Shown piece after piece: positions 10,444 to 18,590 of a stretch of DNA of 64,000 nt. Origin of the DNA: Rhodothermus marinus. Lineage in GTDB: Bacteria; Bacteroidota; Rhodothermia; Rhodothermales; Rhodothermaceae. How positions within the stretch are numbered: the stretch's first letter is position 1; every line of letters begins with the position of its first letter. Under the pieces are notes generated by a model. The model worked only from the letters and a program-made list of their open reading frames with translations, made no database searches and had not been told where the DNA came from. Position numbers and translations under genes: made by a program. The DNA lies in assembly GCF_009936275.1 (NCBI RefSeq), contig NZ_AP019797.1:3145890-3209889 (forward strand), written 5' to 3'.

Positions 10444-11646
10444 CTATCCTTCTCCCACCGAAGCCTGCAAGTCGGGCTCGGGGAGGCCGTAGCCCACCAC
10501 CAGCGCCATCAGCACCAGCGCGAGCGCCCCCAGCAGCGCATTGCTGAGGTAGCCGTACTGCGTGTAGAGCCAGCCGGCCGCCACGCCGCTGATCCCGATA
10601 CCGAGCTGGCCCAGCGCAATCGACAGGCTCATGAGCGAACCGCGCCGGGCGCCCGGCACCAGCGCCGTCAGCAGCGATTGCAGCGGACTCATCCGCATGC
10701 CCACCAGTGCCATCGCCAGCGCAAACAGCGTGTAAATGGCTACATCGCCCTGCATCAGCAGCGGCGCGCCCGCCATCAGCACCGCCAGCCCGAGCGTGGC
10801 CCCCACGATCAAAGGCTTGCGGCCCACGCGATCCGAGAGCCGCCCGGCCAGGGGTCCGGCCACCACGTTCGCCAGCCCGCCGACGAGGAAAAGCAACGCC
10901 ATCTCTTCGGTCCGAAAGCCCTGCGTGTGCTCCAGCCAGGTGGGCAGATAGATCAGAAAAAGCCCGATACTGAAAAACATCAGAAAGTATACAAGCGGCG
11001 AGCGGGCCGTGGTCGGCCGGCGGAGCAGTTCGTAGTAGCGCCGGAGCACGTTGCGAAGCGAGAGCGGCAGCTCGGAGCGCACGCCGGGCGGCTGCGGCAC
11101 GTAACGCCAGATCAGGAGCGTGGCCAGCGCCATCGTGAGCCCGAACGCCAGAAACGGCCAGCGGAAGTCGGCCAGTCCCGCCAGCAGCGTCCCGGCCGGG
11201 ATTCCCACGATCTGGCCGAAGGCGATCCCGCTCATCACCCAGCCGTTGGCCCAGCCGCGGCGCTCGTACGGGAAGTAGTCGCCCACGTAGCTGACGGCCG
11301 CGCCGCTGAGCAGTCCGCCGGCCGCTCCGGCCAGTGCCCGCACCGCCAGCAGCGCGGCGAAGCTGTAGGCCACGCCGTGCAGCAGCAGTGCGCCCGACAT
11401 GGCCCCGCTTCCGGCCAGCAGGATCACCCGCCGCCCCAGCCGGTCCGAGACGGGTCCGGCCACCAGCGCCATCACACTGAGCATCACGGCGTAGGCCGTG
11501 ATCAGGCTACCCTGTTCCAGCTCGCCAATGCCCAGCGTGGCTCCGATGCGCGGCAGAATCGGCGCCATGATGACCACCTGGCTGCTGGCCGAAAAGACCA
11601 TCAGCCAGAGCGCCAGCAGAATCCGCCATTCCGATCGGGCCGCCAT
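10444..11646 (-). CDS. MFS transporter
   Basis: This 400-residue major facilitator has about 12 membrane segments. Motif A copies are recognisable in the first half (GPVSDRLGRRVILL) and at the equivalent position in the second half (GRLSDRVGRKPLIVG), as in drug/metabolite exporters of the DHA1 type. The start is the ATG at 11646 (MAARSEW), which has GAGGA just upstream. A longer frame to 11742 adds an unlikely polar extension. It is divergent from the TonB-receptor gene, and the phased repeats at 11784-11822 lie between them. Substrate unknown. Confidence 0.88.
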   Translation of the reverse strand: MAARSEWRILLALWLMVFSASSQVVIMAPILPRIGATLGIGELEQGSLITAYAVMLSVMALVAGPVSDRLGRRVILLAGSGAMSGALLLHGVAYSFAALLAVRALAGAAGGLLSGAAVSYVGDYFPYERRGWANGWVMSGIAFGQIVGIPAGTLLAGLADFRWPFLAFGLTMALATLLIWRYVPQPPGVRSELPLSLRNVLRRYYELLRRPTTARSPLVYFLMFFSIGLFLIYLPTWLEHTQGFRTEEMALLFLVGGLANVVAGPLAGRLSDRVGRKPLIVGATLGLAVLMAGAPLLMQGDVAIYTLFALAMALVGMRMSPLQSLLTALVPGARRGSLMSLSIALGQLGIGISGVAAGWLYTQYGYLSNALLGALALVLMALVVGYGLPEPDLQASVGEG

Positions 11647-11783
11647 GCCGTCCTCTGCGGATTTTCCGGCCCAACCGGCGGCTTCGGATCTTTGTTTCGA
11701 CAGGCGCTGACTCTTTCTGTCTATTGACAAAAACAGGACCACTTAACACGCCAGCGCTTTATGAAAAGGCCATCAAGCCCATC

Positions 11784-11838
11784 GTTAACGATTCGCTAAT
11801 GCCCGGTTAATCGTCAGATAACAGGCGGCGGCTACCTT
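11784..11838 (+). promoter_or_regulatory. Putative Pho box: four 11-bp-phased hexamers, then a -10/-7 element
   Basis: GTTAAC (11784), GCTAAT (11795), GTTAAT (11806) and GATAAC (11817) start exactly 11 bases apart. The geometry matches PhoB/PhoP-type response-regulator sites, where 11-bp direct repeats stand in for the -35. TACCTTGG (11833-11840) follows 16 bases after the start of the last repeat and resembles a Bacteroidota -7 box. The receptor start codon is 34 bases further on. The phosphate assignment is inference. Confidence 0.6.
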
Positions 11839-11872
11839 GGCCGGCGATCTTAAAAGGATACACCGTCGGCCT

Positions 11873-14746
11873 ATGCAACGCCTGCTTCTCCTGATTCCCG
11901 TGCTGCTGACGGCCTGGAGCGTCCGGGCTCAGACGGGGCGCATCGCCGGAACGGTAGTCGACGCCGAAACGGGCGAGCCGCTCATCGGCGTGAACGTGCT
12001 CGTGGTGGAAAAAGCCACCGGCGCCGCCACCGACCTCGAAGGCCGCTACGAAATCGCCGACCTCGTCCCCGGCACCTATACGCTGCGCTTCTCTTACGTG
12101 GGCTACGTGAGCCAGACCGTGGAAGGCGTCGTGGTGCGTGCGGGCGAGGTCACGCGCATCGATCTGAGCCTGGCCCCGGAGTCGGTGGGCCTCGAGGCGG
12201 TTGTGGTCGAAGCGCGTCTGCTGCGCAACACCGAAGCGGCCCTGCTGGCCGCCCGTCAGCGGGCCGCCGCCGTCAGCGACGCGATCAGCGCCGAGATGAT
12301 CGGCCGCACGGGCAGCAGCGACGCGGCCGACGCCATGGAGAAAGTGACGGGCGCCTCGGTGCTTGACGGCAAGTACGTGTACGTGCGCGGTCTGGGCGAG
12401 CGCTACATGAACGCCCAGCTCAACGGACTGGACCTCCCCAGCGCCGACCCCGACCGCAAGGCCGTGCCGTTCGATCTGTTTCCCGCCGCCCTGCTTGACA
12501 ACATCGTCACGGTCAAAACCTTCACACCCGATCGCCCCGGCAGCTTCACCGGCGGCAGCGTCAACCTGAACACCCGGGCCTTTCCCGACGCGCTGTCGAT
12601 CAGCTTTTCCACTTCGATCACCTACCGGCCTCAGGTGGTGGGCTTCGGCAATCCCATCCTGGCCGTGCCCGGCGCCGACCCGGGCGTCTGGGGCTTTCGG
12701 GCCGATCGCCTCGACGTGCCCGCCCTGCTGCAAACACACCGCTTCGAAAACATTCCGTCGCTCAGCCAGGCCATCCTGAACCCCGACAATGCCCGACTGC
12801 TGGACCAGCTCTCCCGGGCACTCACGCCCGAAATGGCCCCGGTCTACCGACGGGCGCCGCTCAACCAGAGCTATACGTTTTCGGCAGGCAATCGCTTCGA
12901 CCTGGGCGGCGATCGACTGCTGGGCCTGGTGGCCAGCTTCAGCTATCGACGACAGGCCACCGCCTACGACGACGGCATCTGGGCCCGCTACCGGCTGACC
13001 GGCCGCGACGAAGCGGTCCTTTCCGAGGATAATTACCTGCACACCATCTCGGGCACCGACGAAGTCGTCTGGGGCAGCCTGGTCAACGCGACGCTGCGCC
13101 CGCATCGACAGCACGAGCTGGGCTTCAGTTTTATCCAGAACCACAGCGCCGAAAGCACCGCCCGCTACCAGCGCGGTCGTTTTCTGTACAATCTGGAACC
13201 CGACGACATCTACGAAACACGCGCGCTCATTTACATCGAACGCGATATCCGCACCTACCAGCTTCGGGGCAAGCATGCCCTCGGCGACGGGCGCCAGCCC
13301 GCCACGCTGAGCTGGGACTTTTCCACGACCGGCACCTGGCAGGACGAACCCGACCGCCGCTTTTTCACGAACCATTATCGCCTGCGCACCGGCAACGACG
13401 GCTCCATCGACACGCTCTACACGATCCGCGCCACCACGCCCCCACAGCGCTACTTCCGCTATCTGGAAGAATCGAACCAGGTGGGCAATCTGGCCCTGGA
13501 AGTACCACTCACGACCGCCCTGCGCCTCAAGGTGGGCGGCTACCTGGAGCACAAGACACGCACCTATCGCGAGCGCAAATTCGTGCTGCGCCAGCAACAG
13601 GGCAAACGCTACGACGGTGACCCCGAGGCTTACTTCGCGCCCGAAAATCTGGGCATCCTTCAGGAACGCGACCTGAACGGTGACGGCGCACCCGATCTGT
13701 TCACCTTCGGCCTGTATCTGCAGGAAGACACGCAGCCTTCTTCCAACTACGACGGCACCCAGGACATCCGGGCCGGCTTTGCCATGATCGACTGGACGCC
13801 GCTGCGCCGGCTGCGGGTGATCACCGGGCTGCGCTACGAAACCACCGACATGGAAGTGGTCAGCCAGGACCCCACCAAAGACGTGGGGCGGCTCCGGAAC
13901 GGCGACTGGCTTCCGGCGGCTACGGTCATCTACCGGCTGGCCGACGACATGAACCTGCGGCTGGCCTACGGCCGCACGCTGGCCCGACCGGTCTTCCGTG
14001 AGCTGGCCCCCTACTCGACCTTCGAGTACGTGGGCGGCTACCTGCTCACCGGCAACCCCGACTTGCGCCGCACGCTCGTGGACAACTTCGACCTGCGCTG
14101 GGAATGGTTCGTGCGTCCGGGCGAATTGCTGGCCGCCAGCTTGTTTTTCAAGTACTTCGACGATCCGATCGAAGTCGTCTACCAGCCCTTCGCGCCCAAC
14201 GACAGCCCCGAGGTGCAGTATCGCAATGTCGAAGACGCCACGCTTTACGGGCTGGAGCTGGAGCTGCGCAAGCGGCTGGACTTTCTGAGTGGCGCACTGC
14301 GGCATTTTGAAATCGGCGGCAACGCGACGTTCATCCATTCGACCGTGCGCGTACCGGCCGAAGAGCTGCAATCGATCCGGGAGCTACGACCCGACGCACC
14401 GGCCACGCGCTCACTGCAGGGGCAGTCGCCCTACCTCATCAACGCCGACCTGAGCTACGTGCACGAACAGCGCGGCACGACGGTCAGCCTCTACTACAAC
14501 GTGTTCGGTCCCCGCCTGAAGGAAGTCGGACTCGGCGGCACGCCCGACACTTACGAGCGCCCGCGCCACACGCTGGACCTGAACATGAGCCAGCGGCTGA
14601 TGACGAATCTGTCGCTCAAGCTATCGGCGAAAAACCTGCTGAACGCCCGCTATCGCGTCTCCCATAGCTACAAAGGGCGGAAGTACGTGACGCGTGACTA
14701 CGGCAGCGGGCGATCGTTCTCCATCGGTCTCAGCTACCACTACTGA
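11873..14746 (+). CDS. TonB-dependent receptor with carboxypeptidase-like regulatory domain
   Basis: This is a 957-residue outer-membrane receptor. A signal peptide (about 1-20, ending VRAQT) is followed by a CarboxypepD_reg-like Ig domain (GRIAGTVVDAETGEPLIGVNV...), a plug domain (SDAADAMEKVTGASVLDGKYVYVRGLGERY) and a 22-strand-type barrel ending in an aromatic residue (LSYHY). The ATG at 11873 is chosen because the signal peptide begins there; an in-frame ATG at 11837 lies within the promoter region. It is followed by a T9SS-sorted surface protein, the usual Bacteroidota pairing of receptor and exposed ligand-binding partner. The upstream Pho-box-like repeats suggest induction by phosphate limitation, so the cargo may be a phosphorus compound or a metal. 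The cargo is not evident from sequence. Confidence 0.9.
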   Translation: MQRLLLLIPVLLTAWSVRAQTGRIAGTVVDAETGEPLIGVNVLVVEKATGAATDLEGRYEIADLVPGTYTLRFSYVGYVSQTVEGVVVRAGEVTRIDLSLAPESVGLEAVVVEARLLRNTEAALLAARQRAAAVSDAISAEMIGRTGSSDAADAMEKVTGASVLDGKYVYVRGLGERYMNAQLNGLDLPSADPDRKAVPFDLFPAALLDNIVTVKTFTPDRPGSFTGGSVNLNTRAFPDALSISFSTSITYRPQVVGFGNPILAVPGADPGVWGFRADRLDVPALLQTHRFENIPSLSQAILNPDNARLLDQLSRALTPEMAPVYRRAPLNQSYTFSAGNRFDLGGDRLLGLVASFSYRRQATAYDDGIWARYRLTGRDEAVLSEDNYLHTISGTDEVVWGSLVNATLRPHRQHELGFSFIQNHSAESTARYQRGRFLYNLEPDDIYETRALIYIERDIRTYQLRGKHALGDGRQPATLSWDFSTTGTWQDEPDRRFFTNHYRLRTGNDGSIDTLYTIRATTPPQRYFRYLEESNQVGNLALEVPLTTALRLKVGGYLEHKTRTYRERKFVLRQQQGKRYDGDPEAYFAPENLGILQERDLNGDGAPDLFTFGLYLQEDTQPSSNYDGTQDIRAGFAMIDWTPLRRLRVITGLRYETTDMEVVSQDPTKDVGRLRNGDWLPAATVIYRLADDMNLRLAYGRTLARPVFRELAPYSTFEYVGGYLLTGNPDLRRTLVDNFDLRWEWFVRPGELLAASLFFKYFDDPIEVVYQPFAPNDSPEVQYRNVEDATLYGLELELRKRLDFLSGALRHFEIGGNATFIHSTVRVPAEELQSIRELRPDAPATRSLQGQSPYLINADLSYVHEQRGTTVSLYYNVFGPRLKEVGLGGTPDTYERPRHTLDLNMSQRLMTNLSLKLSAKNLLNARYRVSHSYKGRKYVTRDYGSGRSFSIGLSYHY

Positions 14747-14809: not shown

Positions 14810-14837
14810 GTTAACAAACCATAAACCCAACGTAATC
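14810..14837 (+). promoter_or_regulatory. Weak 11-bp-phased repeats before the T9SS protein
   Basis: GTTAAC (14810), ATAAAC (14821) and GTAATC (14832) keep the 11-base phase of the stronger sites but are degenerate. They end 5 bases before the start codon, leaving no room for a downstream promoter. Possibly a relic or chance. Confidence 0.2.
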
Positions 14838-14842
14838 CCGCC

Positions 14843-16507
14843 ATGAACAAACGCCTTACCACCCTGCTGCTCCTGTTGGCGTGGCCGCTGCTGGGCCGCG
14901 CCCAGAACGTGGTGACGGTGACCGACGCCGACATCGGTCCGGGCGATCAGGTCACCTGGACCAGCGACAACGTCTACGTCCTCGACGGCTTCGTCTTCGT
15001 CGAAGAAGGCGCCACGCTCACCATCGAGCCCGGCACCGTCATCAAAGGCAAACCCGGCACCGGCGAAAACGCCTCCGCGCTCATCATCGCACGCGGGGCC
15101 AGAATCTACGCCGAAGGGACACCCGACCGCCCCATCATCTTCACGGCCGAAGCCGATCCGCTCGACGGCAGCTTCGACGCCTCTATCCGCGGTCAGTGGG
15201 GCGGTCTGATCATCCTCGGGCGCGCCCGCACCAACCTCGCCAACGGCGAGGCCAACATCGAAGGCATTCCCTCTACCGAAACGCGCGCCCGCTACGGCTG
15301 CGTTCCGAACAACACCACCCCCACCACCATCGACGACTGCGACGACAACGACAACTCCGGCGTGCTCCGCTACGTCTCCATCCGCCATGGCGGCTCCAAC
15401 ATCGGCGCCGACAACGAAATCAACGGCCTCACGCTCGGCGCCGTCGGCAGCGGCACGACGATCGAGTACGTGGAGGTTTTCGCCAACGAAGACGACGGCT
15501 TCGAATTCTTCGGCGGCACCGTCAACACCCGCTACCTCGTGGCCGCCTTCTGCGGCGACGACGCCTTCGACTACGACGAGGGCTTCCGCGGCAAAGGCCA
15601 GTTCTGGTTTGCCATCATGCCTCCCGATGTGGGGAACCGCGCCGGCGAACACGACGGCGGCCGCGACCCCGAAGACGGCCAGCCCTACGCCATCCCCGTC
15701 ATCTACAACGCGACCTACATCGGCTCGGGCGCGGCTTCCGGCAACGCCGACAACAACACGTTCGTCTTCCGTGACAACGCCGGCGGCAAATACCTCAACG
15801 CCATTTTTACCGACTTTGGCAACATCGGCGTTCAGGTGGAAGACGTCGAGGGCGTCGACGTGGACAGCCGCCAGCGGCTGGAGCAGGGCGATCTGGTGCT
15901 GGCCCACAACATCTGGTGGGGCTTCGGAGCCGGCAACGAGCTGGCCGACTTTGCGCCCCAGGATTTCGTGCAGCAGCACCTGCAGGCCAACAACAACTTC
16001 GTCGAAGACCCCATGCTGCGCGGCATCAGCCGCGAGGCGGACGGTGGTCTGGATCCGCGGCCGGCCCCGAACTCCCCGGCGCTGACGCGCCCGCGCGCAC
16101 CCTATCCCGAAAACGACGACTTCTTCACGCCGGTGGACTACATCGGCGCCTTCGGACCGGACGAGCTCTGGATCAAGGGCTGGACCAAACTCGCCCAACT
16201 CGGCATTCTGACGGCGCTGGAGCATGACGCCCGGACGATTCCGGCCGCCGTGGCCCTGCAGGCCGGCTACCCGAATCCGTTCCGGTCCGCCACGACGCTT
16301 ACGTTCGCGCTGGACCGGGCGCAACGGGTGCGGCTGGCCGTCTACGACCTGCTCGGCCGCGAAGTGGCCCGGCTGGTCGAAGGTGTCCGCCCGGCCGGCA
16401 CCTACCGGTTTACCCTTGAGGGCGCCCGCCTGGCGGCCGGCACCTATCTGGTTCGCCTCGAAACCGAGTCGGGCGTGCAGGTCCGGACGCTGACGCGCCT
16501 GCCCTGA
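14843..16507 (+). CDS. Secreted surface protein with T9SS type A sorting domain
   Basis: The protein has 554 residues. The N-terminal signal peptide (MNKRLTTLLLLLAWPLLGRAQ) is clear. The body (about 25-440) has alternating short hydrophobic strands and Gly/Asn turns (LTIEPGTVIKGKPGTG, WGGLIILGRA, GLTLGAVGSGTTIEYVEVF), which suggests a right-handed beta-helix. The last 80 residues form a type IX secretion sorting domain (YPNPFRSATTLTFALD..., VYDLLGREVARLVEG, LAAGTYLVRLE). It should be exported and then anchored or released by the T9SS. Homologous proteins paired with TonB receptors occur in Bacteroidota; a substrate-capture role for the preceding receptor is inferred. It follows the receptor by 96 bases containing a hairpin. 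A rho-independent terminator follows. Confidence 0.85.
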   Translation: MNKRLTTLLLLLAWPLLGRAQNVVTVTDADIGPGDQVTWTSDNVYVLDGFVFVEEGATLTIEPGTVIKGKPGTGENASALIIARGARIYAEGTPDRPIIFTAEADPLDGSFDASIRGQWGGLIILGRARTNLANGEANIEGIPSTETRARYGCVPNNTTPTTIDDCDDNDNSGVLRYVSIRHGGSNIGADNEINGLTLGAVGSGTTIEYVEVFANEDDGFEFFGGTVNTRYLVAAFCGDDAFDYDEGFRGKGQFWFAIMPPDVGNRAGEHDGGRDPEDGQPYAIPVIYNATYIGSGAASGNADNNTFVFRDNAGGKYLNAIFTDFGNIGVQVEDVEGVDVDSRQRLEQGDLVLAHNIWWGFGAGNELADFAPQDFVQQHLQANNNFVEDPMLRGISREADGGLDPRPAPNSPALTRPRAPYPENDDFFTPVDYIGAFGPDELWIKGWTKLAQLGILTALEHDARTIPAAVALQAGYPNPFRSATTLTFALDRAQRVRLAVYDLLGREVARLVEGVRPAGTYRFTLEGARLAAGTYLVRLETESGVQVRTLTRLP

Positions 16508-16572: not shown

Positions 16573-16627
16573 GACAACGGTTTGCTAACCCAGCGCTAAT
16601 CGTTCGCTAACGGGCCATCTGTAAACT
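16573..16627 (+). promoter_or_regulatory. Putative Pho box upstream of plcP-glycosyltransferase
   Basis: GACAAC (16573), GCTAAC (16584), GCTAAT (16595) and GCTAAC (16606) start exactly 11 bases apart. TAAACT (16622-16627) lies 16 bases after the last repeat start, the same offset as in the TonB-receptor promoter. Using this -10, the ATG at 16660 is 33 bases downstream, matching the receptor (35), which supports that start over the ATG at 16636. Confidence 0.62.
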
Positions 16628-16659
16628 CCGGACGGATGCTGAGCTTCCGTCCGCCGGCC

Positions 16660-17478
16660 ATGCGCACCGTCAACTACTTCCGCACGATCTGGATTTCCGA
16701 CGTCCATCTGGGCACGCGGGCCAGCCGCGCCGACTTTCTCTACGACTTTCTGCGCCACAACGAAGCCGACTACCTCTACCTGGTAGGCGACATCTTCGAC
16801 GGCTGGGCGCTGCAGCGCAACTGGTACTGGGATCCTTTCCATAACGGCGTGCTGCAACAAATCCTGCGCAAAGCCCGCAAAGGCACGCACGTCGTCTACA
16901 TTCCGGGCAACCACGACGAATTTGCCCGCCAGTACTACGGGCTGAAGCTCGACGAGATCGTGGTGCGGCCGAGTGCCCTGCACACGACCGTGGACGGCCG
17001 CCAGCTCCTGGTGTTGCACGGCGACGAGTTCGACGGTATCATCCGCTACGCGCCCTGGCTGTCGCACCTGGGGGCCCGCGCCTACGAGCTGGTGCTCGTG
17101 CTCAACCGCTGGTACAACCACGTGCGCCGGCGGCTGGGACTTTCGTACTGGTCGCTTTCGGCCTACCTGAAGTACCGCACCAAACGGGCGGTCCAGTACA
17201 TCGCCGACTTCGAGCGGGCAGTGGTGGCCGAGGCCCGCAAACACGACGTCGAGGGCGTCGTCTGCGGCCACATTCACCACGCCGAGCTGCGCGAAATCGG
17301 CGGCATTCTTTACGCCAACACGGGCGACTGGGTGGAAAGCTGCACGGCCCTGGTGGAGCACTTCGACGGACGACTGGAAATCCTGCACTGGACGCCCGCC
17401 GAGGTGTTTCTGAATCCGTCCGGCGACGGCCGGCTCCCGGACGAACTCCCGGCCCTGAGCGTGCCCGTCCGGCCATGA
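16660..17478 (+). CDS. plcP: PlcP-like calcineurin phosphoesterase (UDP-2,3-diacylglucosamine diphosphatase-like)
   Basis: This 272-residue metallophosphoesterase has a complete dinuclear metal site: ISDVHLG (Asp14, His16), GDIFDGW (Asp44), GNHDE (Asn84, His85), HGDEFD (His120) and GHIHH (203-207). Homologues are often annotated LpxH-like. The motifs LVGDIFDGW, LRKARKGTHVVYIPGNHDE, HGDEFD and NTGDWVESCTALVEH are those of PlcP, the phospholipase C of marine bacteria and rhizobia that removes phosphate head groups during phosphorus starvation. PlcP typically pairs with a diacylglycerol glycosyltransferase and is PhoB-controlled. Here a glycosyltransferase follows with a 4-base ATGA overlap and a Pho-box-like site precedes. 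An LpxH role remains possible but fits the context less well. The 16636 ATG would add 8 residues. Confidence 0.8.
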   Translation: MRTVNYFRTIWISDVHLGTRASRADFLYDFLRHNEADYLYLVGDIFDGWALQRNWYWDPFHNGVLQQILRKARKGTHVVYIPGNHDEFARQYYGLKLDEIVVRPSALHTTVDGRQLLVLHGDEFDGIIRYAPWLSHLGARAYELVLVLNRWYNHVRRRLGLSYWSLSAYLKYRTKRAVQYIADFERAVVAEARKHDVEGVVCGHIHHAELREIGGILYANTGDWVESCTALVEHFDGRLEILHWTPAEVFLNPSGDGRLPDELPALSVPVRP

Positions 17479-18590
17479 CGGACCGTCCACTCCGGGTGCT
17501 GTTCGTGGTGCAGGGCGAAGGACGCGGTCACCTGACCCAGGCGCTGACGTTGCGTCGCTGGTTGACCGAGGCCGGCCACGAAGTGGCGGCCGTGCTGGTA
17601 GGACGAAGCCAGGAACGCCGGCTGCCCGCGTTCTTTCTGGAAAAAATCCAGGCGCCCGTCCACGAATTTGCCTCGCCCAACTTCGCCTTCGATCGACGCT
17701 TCCGGGGCATTCGGCCCGGCCGCACCCTTGTTCGCAACCTGCTGCACCTTCCGGAATTTCAGCGAAGCCTGCACCGACTGCACGAAGCCGTTCAGGACGT
17801 GGCGCCCGATCTCGTCGTCAATTTCTACGAAGTGCTGATCGGCCTGCTCTATCGCCGGGCAAAGCTTCAACCGCCGCTGGTCTGCATCGCCCACCAGTAT
17901 TTTTTCCTGCATCCGGACTATCCCTTTCCGCCGGGCTTCCCGCTACAGCGCCGGCTGGTCCGGCTGTTCACGCGGCTGACGGCCCCACCGGGTGCCCGCA
18001 AGCTGGCGCTGTCGTTCTACGAGGCACCCGATCTTCCCGAGCGCCGGCTCTTCGTCGTGCCGCCGCTGCTGCGCCCCGAACTCTTCGAACTGCCGCTGGA
18101 TCGGACCGAGAACTTCCTGCTGGTCTATCTGCTCAACCGGGGCTATGCCGACGATCTGATCCGCTGGCACACCCGCCATCCCGAAATCGGCCTGCACGTC
18201 TTCTGGGACAATACGGAGCGGCCCGACGGCTGGTCGCCCCATCCCGGACTGGTTTTCCACCACCTGAACGACCGACTCTTTCTGGAAAAAATGGCCCGCT
18301 GTCGCGGCGTGGTTACGACGGCCGGCTTCGAGACCGTGGCCGAGGCGCTCTACCTGGGCAAACCTGTGTTGATGGTGCCCGTCGAAGGCCACTTCGAGCA
18401 GCGCTGCAACGCACACGACGCCGAGCGCTTCGGCGCGGGCATCTGGAGTCCCCGCTTCGAACTGGACCGACTGCTGGCGTTTCTACCGCATTACCGGAGT
18501 CCTTTGGCCGCCTTTCGTCGCTGGGTGGCACAGGCCCCTATGAAAATTCTTCCCCACCTGACAGCCTCCACCCTGCGGCCGGTTGCGTAA
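17475..18590 (+). CDS. MurG/MGDG-synthase-like glycosyltransferase
   Basis: This is a 371-residue GT-B-fold protein. The N-terminal Rossmann half has the acceptor-loop motif VVQGEGRGHLTQAL (residues about 11-24), as in the MJ1255/TIGR00661 family and similar to the GxGGH loop of GT28 enzymes. The C-terminal half carries a donor-binding region (MARCRGVVTTAGFETVAEALYLGKPVLMVPVEGHFEQRCNA) typical of GT28/GT1-like transferases. Overlap with plcP (ATGA) implies coupled translation. By analogy with PlcP-Agt systems I infer that it glycosylates the diacylglycerol released by PlcP to give phosphorus-free glycolipids. The sugar donor is unknown, and a carotenoid or polysaccharide acceptor cannot be excluded. 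Confidence 0.8.
   Translation: MTDRPLRVLFVVQGEGRGHLTQALTLRRWLTEAGHEVAAVLVGRSQERRLPAFFLEKIQAPVHEFASPNFAFDRRFRGIRPGRTLVRNLLHLPEFQRSLHRLHEAVQDVAPDLVVNFYEVLIGLLYRRAKLQPPLVCIAHQYFFLHPDYPFPPGFPLQRRLVRLFTRLTAPPGARKLALSFYEAPDLPERRLFVVPPLLRPELFELPLDRTENFLLVYLLNRGYADDLIRWHTRHPEIGLHVFWDNTERPDGWSPHPGLVFHHLNDRLFLEKMARCRGVVTTAGFETVAEALYLGKPVLMVPVEGHFEQRCNAHDAERFGAGIWSPRFELDRLLAFLPHYRSPLAAFRRWVAQAPMKILPHLTASTLRPVA

Follow-up and report, generated by a model that had tools for sequence, protein, structure and literature searches.

Genes and repeat arrays at the receptor and plcP promoters

The analysed window, a stretch of 64,000 nucleotides of the Rhodothermus marinus genome (contig NZ_AP019797.1, positions 3,145,890 to 3,209,889), carries the gene of a TonB-dependent receptor, followed on the same strand by a partner gene, a plcP-like metallophosphoesterase gene and a glycosyltransferase gene, with one array of hexamers at 11-bp spacing ahead of the receptor gene and a second one ahead of plcP (Table 1). 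Within the order Rhodothermales, a search with the receptor gave matches in 87 of 114 genomes (E up to 1e-60), and neighbourhoods were taken for 58 of these 87. Because the 58 loci were partly chosen for nearby PhoU or plcP, the linkage fractions obtained from them run high: the partner accompanies the receptor in 55/58 (the other three stop at a contig edge), 35/58 have a divergent MFS transporter gene no more than 1.2 kb from the receptor, and PhoU is found in 12/58, with pstSCAB in one. All 12 of the fetched order loci with plcP have a glycosyltransferase gene after it. The structure model of the partner (pLDDT 85.7) predicts a strand-rich body and a secretion tail. A sequence comparison of the partner with solved structures gave no match up to an E of 1, and Foldseek returned weak matches only, the best at E 1.3e-6 with a TM of about 0.2 (a dehydratase, then tailspikes). 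That the partner body may be a beta-helix is a weak statement, since these matches are weak and it leans on IPR011050, the entry given for FII in the consulted part of a study of Flavobacterium johnsoniae (PMC8115612).

Table 1 Features of the locus in window coordinates.
Feature	Position	Strand	Description
MFS transporter gene, divergent	10444..11742	-	frequent neighbour; no sign of service by the array
Putative operator, receptor	11784..11822	+	four NNTAAY hexamers, 11-bp spacing; putative PhoB sites
-10/-7 element, receptor	11833..11840	+	TACCTTGG; first base 16 nt past the start of the last hexamer
TonB-dependent receptor gene	11873..14746	+	PF13715, PF07715, PF00593, PF14905; CarboxypepD-like, plug, barrel
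Weaker 11-bp array	14810..14848	-	antisense, at the start of the partner gene
Partner gene (T9P)	14843..16507	+	predicted strand-rich surface protein, type IX secretion tail, FII/ElpS-like
Second putative operator, plcP	16573..16611	+	four hexamers, 11-bp spacing; arrays also at relatives' plcP
-10/-7 element, plcP	16622..16629	+	TAAACTCC; 16 nt past the start of the last hexamer
plcP-like metallophosphoesterase gene	16660..17478	+	PF00149; predicted PlcP; matches in 60/114 order genomes
Glycosyltransferase gene	17475..18590	+	PF13528; Agt-like by its position after plcP

The sequence-only reading had placed GTTAAC, GCTAAT, GTTAAT and GATAAC ahead of the receptor gene at 11784, 11795, 11806 and 11817, and all four are present there. 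Ahead of plcP, GACAAC, GCTAAC, GCTAAT and GCTAAC start at 16573, 16584, 16595 and 16606; the last three fit the hexamer pattern and the first is imperfect. The -10/-7 element begins, as claimed, 16 nt past the start of the last hexamer at both promoters (11817 to 11833 and 16606 to 16622), TAAACTCC being a poor fit to TAnnTTTG. The spacing to the start codon, which had been taken as equal, is close but not identical, with 40 nt from the T of the -10 at 11833 to the ATG at 11873 for the receptor and 38 nt from 16622 to 16660 for plcP. Among the receptor promoters of relatives, the distance from array to start differs widely.

Allowing up to three mismatches, the four-hexamer pattern gave five matches in the window at three places, namely the receptor array, the plcP array and the weaker antisense array at 14810, and none in 100 dinucleotide shuffles. 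Across the genome of 3,430,829 bases, the exact three-hexamer pattern gave three overlapping matches, all of them at the receptor and plcP sites. Relaxed scans also hit their reversed or control patterns, with 11 matches versus six for three hexamers with up to two mismatches and 40 versus 23 for four hexamers with up to three, so that weak matches are of little meaning. Exact two-hexamer matches numbered 13 versus two for the reversed control; seven of the 13 lie at the receptor, plcP, phoA and pstS sites, and the remaining six, inspected in part, were left unassigned. The identical geometry of the two promoters had been proposed to argue against chance, and chance is indeed made very improbable as its source by the shuffles and by the recurrence of the arrays in relatives and at other genes.

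Matches at genome positions 3385330 (-), 337205 (-), 740640 and 2940291 were considered as further targets and left out of the target set, because no clear phosphate gene in the right orientation was seen in the downstream sequence that was read. At 3385330-3385377 (-), TGTAAC-TGTAAC-TGTAAT at 11 bp (L319) stands among reading frames without a recognised phosphate gene. At 2940289-2940327 (L018, L322), three hexamers at 11-bp spacing stand antisense before a gene with a weak match to PF07396, the family of phosphate-selective porins (24.5 bits against a cut-off of 20.9).

Conservation within the order and across Bacteroidota

According to the sequence-only reading, the phased hexamers should be kept at orthologous promoters, and this is what we observed. 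Every period from 6 to 19 was scored over 350 nt upstream by the best three-hexamer array (maximum 15), and 36 of the 58 order receptor promoters reached at least 13 at 11 bp, versus 0-1 at periods 6-10 and 12-19. The mean best score was 12.9 at 11 bp and 9.4-10.1 at the other periods, and in dinucleotide shuffles of the same promoters a mean of 0.04 and at most one reached the threshold. The 36 strong arrays span 11 of 14 families; the 22 promoters below 13 include most members of a few weak families, in which the threshold was reached by 1/9 (f3), 3/9 (f13), 0/4 (f15), 0/1 (f6) and 0/1 (f10).

The phase relative to the -10 is conserved as well. Among the 48 order promoters with an array scoring at least 12, 30 have TA at +16, counted from where the last hexamer begins, and eight have it at +27 (16+11), the next commonest offset. 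In the 30 promoters anchored at +16, the four successive hexamer slots have means of 4.40, 4.50, 4.43 and 3.87 out of 5, the flanking slots are at background (1.43 upstream, 1.57 downstream), and T occupies +21 in 97%, a position that was not a selection criterion. These slot scores, the background flanks and the T at +21 indicate four half-sites followed by a TAnnnT -10 rather than a diffuse A/T stretch, and base frequencies in the 30 promoters give the half-site NNTAAY.

Of 30 plcP promoters of the order, nine reached at least 13 at 11 bp, whereas periods 8-10 and 12-14 yielded no such score; 12 have an array of at least 12, and TA stands at +16 in ten of these. The other 18 of the 30 (L063-L092) score below 12; these may sit in operons or be under other control. 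In 60 intergenic stretches between receptor and partner, arrays of at least 13 occur antisense in eight and on the sense strand in five, versus none at other periods on either strand. Besides the window, such antisense arrays occur in L173 near 5758 (-), in L137 near 5685 (-) and in L179-L181, where the array is followed by a hairpin-like sequence.

In the wider phylum, a partner model built from alignment A1 (without L140, dropped after a stop-codon error) matched 322 of 392 sampled genomes at an E of up to 1e-15, a count that is an upper bound because weak matches can reflect the shared secretion tail alone, and tail-only matches do occur. From strong partner matches we took 40 further neighbourhoods, 39 of which hold receptor and partner together on one strand; in the fortieth (L258), without a receptor, the contig ends. 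With L274, a contig-edge artefact, counted as a miss, at least 13 was reached at 11 bp in 24 of these 39 loci, versus 0-2 at other periods, and in 23 of the 38 that lie outside the order, L268 being a divergent member of the genus. The pair is adjoined by phoB and phoR in one of these neighbourhoods (L272) and by a pst operon with PhoU in another (L283). In other orders of the same class (L249-L267), the 16 arrays scoring at least 12 have TA mostly at +27 (seven) or +24 (six) and not at +16, offsets that hint at another spacing in that lineage. Among 15 other further arrays, the commonest TA offset is +16 (eight).

A set of 32 loci of Flavobacterium and related records, obtained from a scan of named genomes, links the array to phoB; none of the loci chosen by name is from F. 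johnsoniae itself. In all 32, phoB and phoR are divergent from the receptor gene with the array in between, and the partner was found in 31. These phoB and phoR genes were found with the pair at genome position 1178397 as query, and the pair at 3275400 gave 32 matches each in the same 32 loci. The array score is at least 12 in 31/32 at 11 bp, versus 0-7 at other periods. Because another array than the one adjacent to the -10 often has the highest three-hexamer score, arrays were counted back from T[AT]nnTTTG, and a four-hexamer score of at least 13 out of 20 was reached in 26/32 at offset 16 and in 26/32 at offset 27 (16+11), versus 0-2 at the other 18 offsets between 8 and 26 and 0-1 for other periods at offset 16; owing to the close relatedness of these loci, the counts are not independent. 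In seven further Flavobacterium-matching loci, where the partner occurs without a receptor match, ATTAAC-N10-TA..TTTG is present in 7/7.

Phosphate genes with the array and the candidate regulator

The next genome site, with one mismatch, lies at 616734 just upstream of a PhoA-type alkaline phosphatase gene (PF00245, with a weak match also to a type IX secretion tail). Here TTTAAC, GACTAC, GCTAAC, GCTAAC and CCTAAC follow one another at 11 bp, and TAGGTTGC stands 27 (16+11) nt past the start of the last hexamer. A close PhoA was found in only four of the 114 order genomes; all four promoters score at least 12, and three have TA at +27. The phoB promoter of R. marinus itself carries CATAAC-N5-GATAAC at 11 bp, with TATTTTG 27 nt past the start of the second hexamer. 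The pstS gene is usually the hallmark Pho gene; as a hallmark target of this array it was rejected, with a three-hexamer score of at least 13 in 1/30 promoters of the order, at least 14 in none, and one conserved pair only. This pair, GTTAACGATTTGATAAT or close to it in the genus, scores at least 9 out of 10 in 16/30 order pstS promoters at 11 bp, versus 0-2 elsewhere.

The elements at the receptor and plcP genes look like the set of one regulator because 11-bp arrays are conserved at both in relatives, in agreement with the earlier proposal of a single response regulator for the uptake pair and lipid remodelling. We infer that this regulator is PhoB from the targets phoA, pstS and phoB and from the position of the array between phoB and the receptor gene in the Flavobacterium set. 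The likeliest candidate in R. marinus is the PhoB homologue encoded at 3275400-3276068 of the genome. The phoBR genes lie at about 3274338-3276122, roughly 64 kb past the window end at 3209889. Among the six loci compared, the predicted PhoB shares the highest identity (47%) with a Flavobacterium PhoB, and its kinase is the best match to the corresponding Flavobacterium PhoR. Its DNA-binding domain matches the E. coli PhoB effector structures 1gxp, 1qqi and 3t72 (E about 1e-19), with the entries of five other regulators scoring slightly better in that search than those of E. coli PhoB.

Seven full-length regulators of the PhoB type are encoded in the genome, all of them below the TIGR02154 cut-off, and the repeats might be bound by another member of the PhoB/OmpR family, e.g., that at 1178397-1179050, which has a kinase of its own, in which case the regulon would not be one of phosphate. 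TIGR02154 does rank 1178397 highest, with 241 bits against 226 for 3275400, all values lying below the cut-off. However, the Flavobacterium PhoB, whose gene adjoins the array, is matched better by 3275400 (209 bits) than by 1178397 (168 bits), and a non-phosphate regulon is unlikely with phoA, pstS and phoB among the array targets, so that we regard this alternative as improbable.

A/T tracts in helical phase bend DNA, and phased A/T steps every 11 bp could serve intrinsic curvature or a nucleoid protein instead of forming a specific operator. Against this, the core is a directional TAAY, with 15 of 16 core positions invariant in five promoters of the genus versus five of 20 spacer positions, and the anchored order promoters keep four copies in a fixed phase. 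Furthermore, in 1.56 Mb of fetched loci scanned on both strands, clusters of at least 14 numbered 46 at 11 bp versus 0-4 at six other periods, and 35 of the 46 precede the receptor (29), plcP (three) or the partner (three), while 11 precede none of these; DNA bending as the explanation is highly improbable. Hardly any weight attaches to chance or to the descent of one promoter without function. The two window sites are less than 5 kb apart, which would allow a local duplication, and the compared loci are related, so their counts are not independent events. Yet the window pattern was unmatched in the 100 shuffles, arrays extend across 11 of 14 order families, beyond the order and to phoA, phoB and pstS elsewhere, and the cores stay while the spacers diverge.

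A proposed phosphate switch and its relation to known systems

The site ahead of the receptor gene is, judged from sequence, very probably a PhoB operator through which the receptor pair and PlcP with the glycosyltransferase would be activated, rather than repressed, under low phosphate. PhoR would then phosphorylate PhoB, two dimers of which would occupy the four 11-bp repeats in head-to-tail order, as suits direct repeats that recur roughly every helical turn. The last PhoB would replace the -35/-33 element, touch the sigma factor and open the promoter with its -10 at +16; activation by contact with sigma is suggested by the last half-site, which occupies the -35/-33 place, and by analogy with E. 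coli PhoB. At 11784-11822, this switch would turn on the TonB-dependent receptor and its surface partner, a PUSIV/ElpS-like pair whose probable role at the outer membrane is to capture phosphate or organic phosphorus. PlcP and the glycosyltransferase would be turned on in the same way from 16573-16611; they could recycle phospholipid phosphorus and put a glycolipid in its place.

In many soils and waters, where Bacteroidota are major degraders, growth is limited by phosphate. We consider it fairly likely that one grammar, consisting of four NNTAAY half-sites at 11 bp with the -10 at +16 or one turn further, governs phosphate starvation throughout the phylum, that its signature target is the receptor/ElpS-like pair and not pstS, that its consensus can call regulons, and that reversed arrays may add antisense control. 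If so, surface capture would be the core of the phosphate response in Bacteroidota, and the consensus would be specific enough for genome-by-genome calls of Pho regulons. With a defined operator whose phase to the promoter is fixed, phosphate regulons could be read from sequence, and the finding points to an uncharacterised pair of receptor and surface protein as a core tool of phosphorus capture.

In E. coli, the Pho box consists of 11-bp direct repeats with the half-site CTGTCAT, and the -35 is replaced. The arrays described here share the 11-bp direct repeats, the last repeat in place of a -35 near the -10, the targets phoA, pstS and phoB and, putatively, a PhoB-family regulator. They differ in the half-site, NNTAAY instead of CTGTCAT, in the four repeats of the anchored order receptor promoters and in the -10, which is TAnnTTTG/TAnnnT. 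The broad features of a Pho box, i.e., 11-bp direct repeats, a fixed place before the -10 and presence before phosphate-starvation genes, are all found, although the phase varies (+24, +27) among further loci belonging to the same class. In Bacillus subtilis, the PhoP box consists of TT(A/T)ACA repeats about 11 bp apart, often in four copies, upstream of Pho genes; its TTAACA-type half-site, as generally described, resembles NNTAAY, while phylum and promoter class are different. The Pho box as a kind is known, whereas the half-site, the four-copy array and the 16-nt phase may be new for Bacteroidota. A search of titles and abstract openings in the openly accessible literature returned no definition of a Bacteroidota Pho box.

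For the plcP branch, the comparison is with PlcP-Agt lipid remodelling. In marine bacteria, plcP is often located beside a glycosyltransferase gene and induced by phosphorus starvation, also in a flavobacterium, and putative Pho boxes have been reported in plcP clusters, the consulted passages on these boxes containing no Bacteroidota consensus (PMC4796936). The window likewise has a plcP-like gene followed by a glycosyltransferase gene.

For the receptor branch, one relative is ElpS of Caulobacter crescentus, described in the consulted passages as a phosphate-starvation surface protein, discussed together with the TonB receptor Cc0171 and released with the help of a type II system, its production continuing after deletion of cc0171 (PMC2996285). 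The combination of a surface protein and a TonB receptor is the same in the window, whose partner is linked to ElpS through the report that FI-FIII are 31-36% identical to Caulobacter ElpS over about half their length (PMC8115612, consulted part); unlike ElpS with its type II-aided release, the window partner has a type IX tail. Another parallel is PUSIV of F. johnsoniae, which comprises phoBR, the TBDT Fjoh_0545, FII (Fjoh_0546) and the glycosyltransferase Fjoh_0541. Upon phosphate depletion, PhoB, the TBDT, FII and the glycosyltransferase rise, PhoR not significantly, and PlcP, encoded elsewhere in the genome, rises as well, according to a study whose text contains neither "Pho box" nor "promoter" (PMC8115612). 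In the window, phoBR lie outside the receptor cluster, plcP follows the pair, and the partner carries a type IX secretion tail, whereas FII is described as a lipoprotein. The window nevertheless has the same domain types and gene order, a TBDT (PF13715, PF07715, barrel) beside an FII-like protein.
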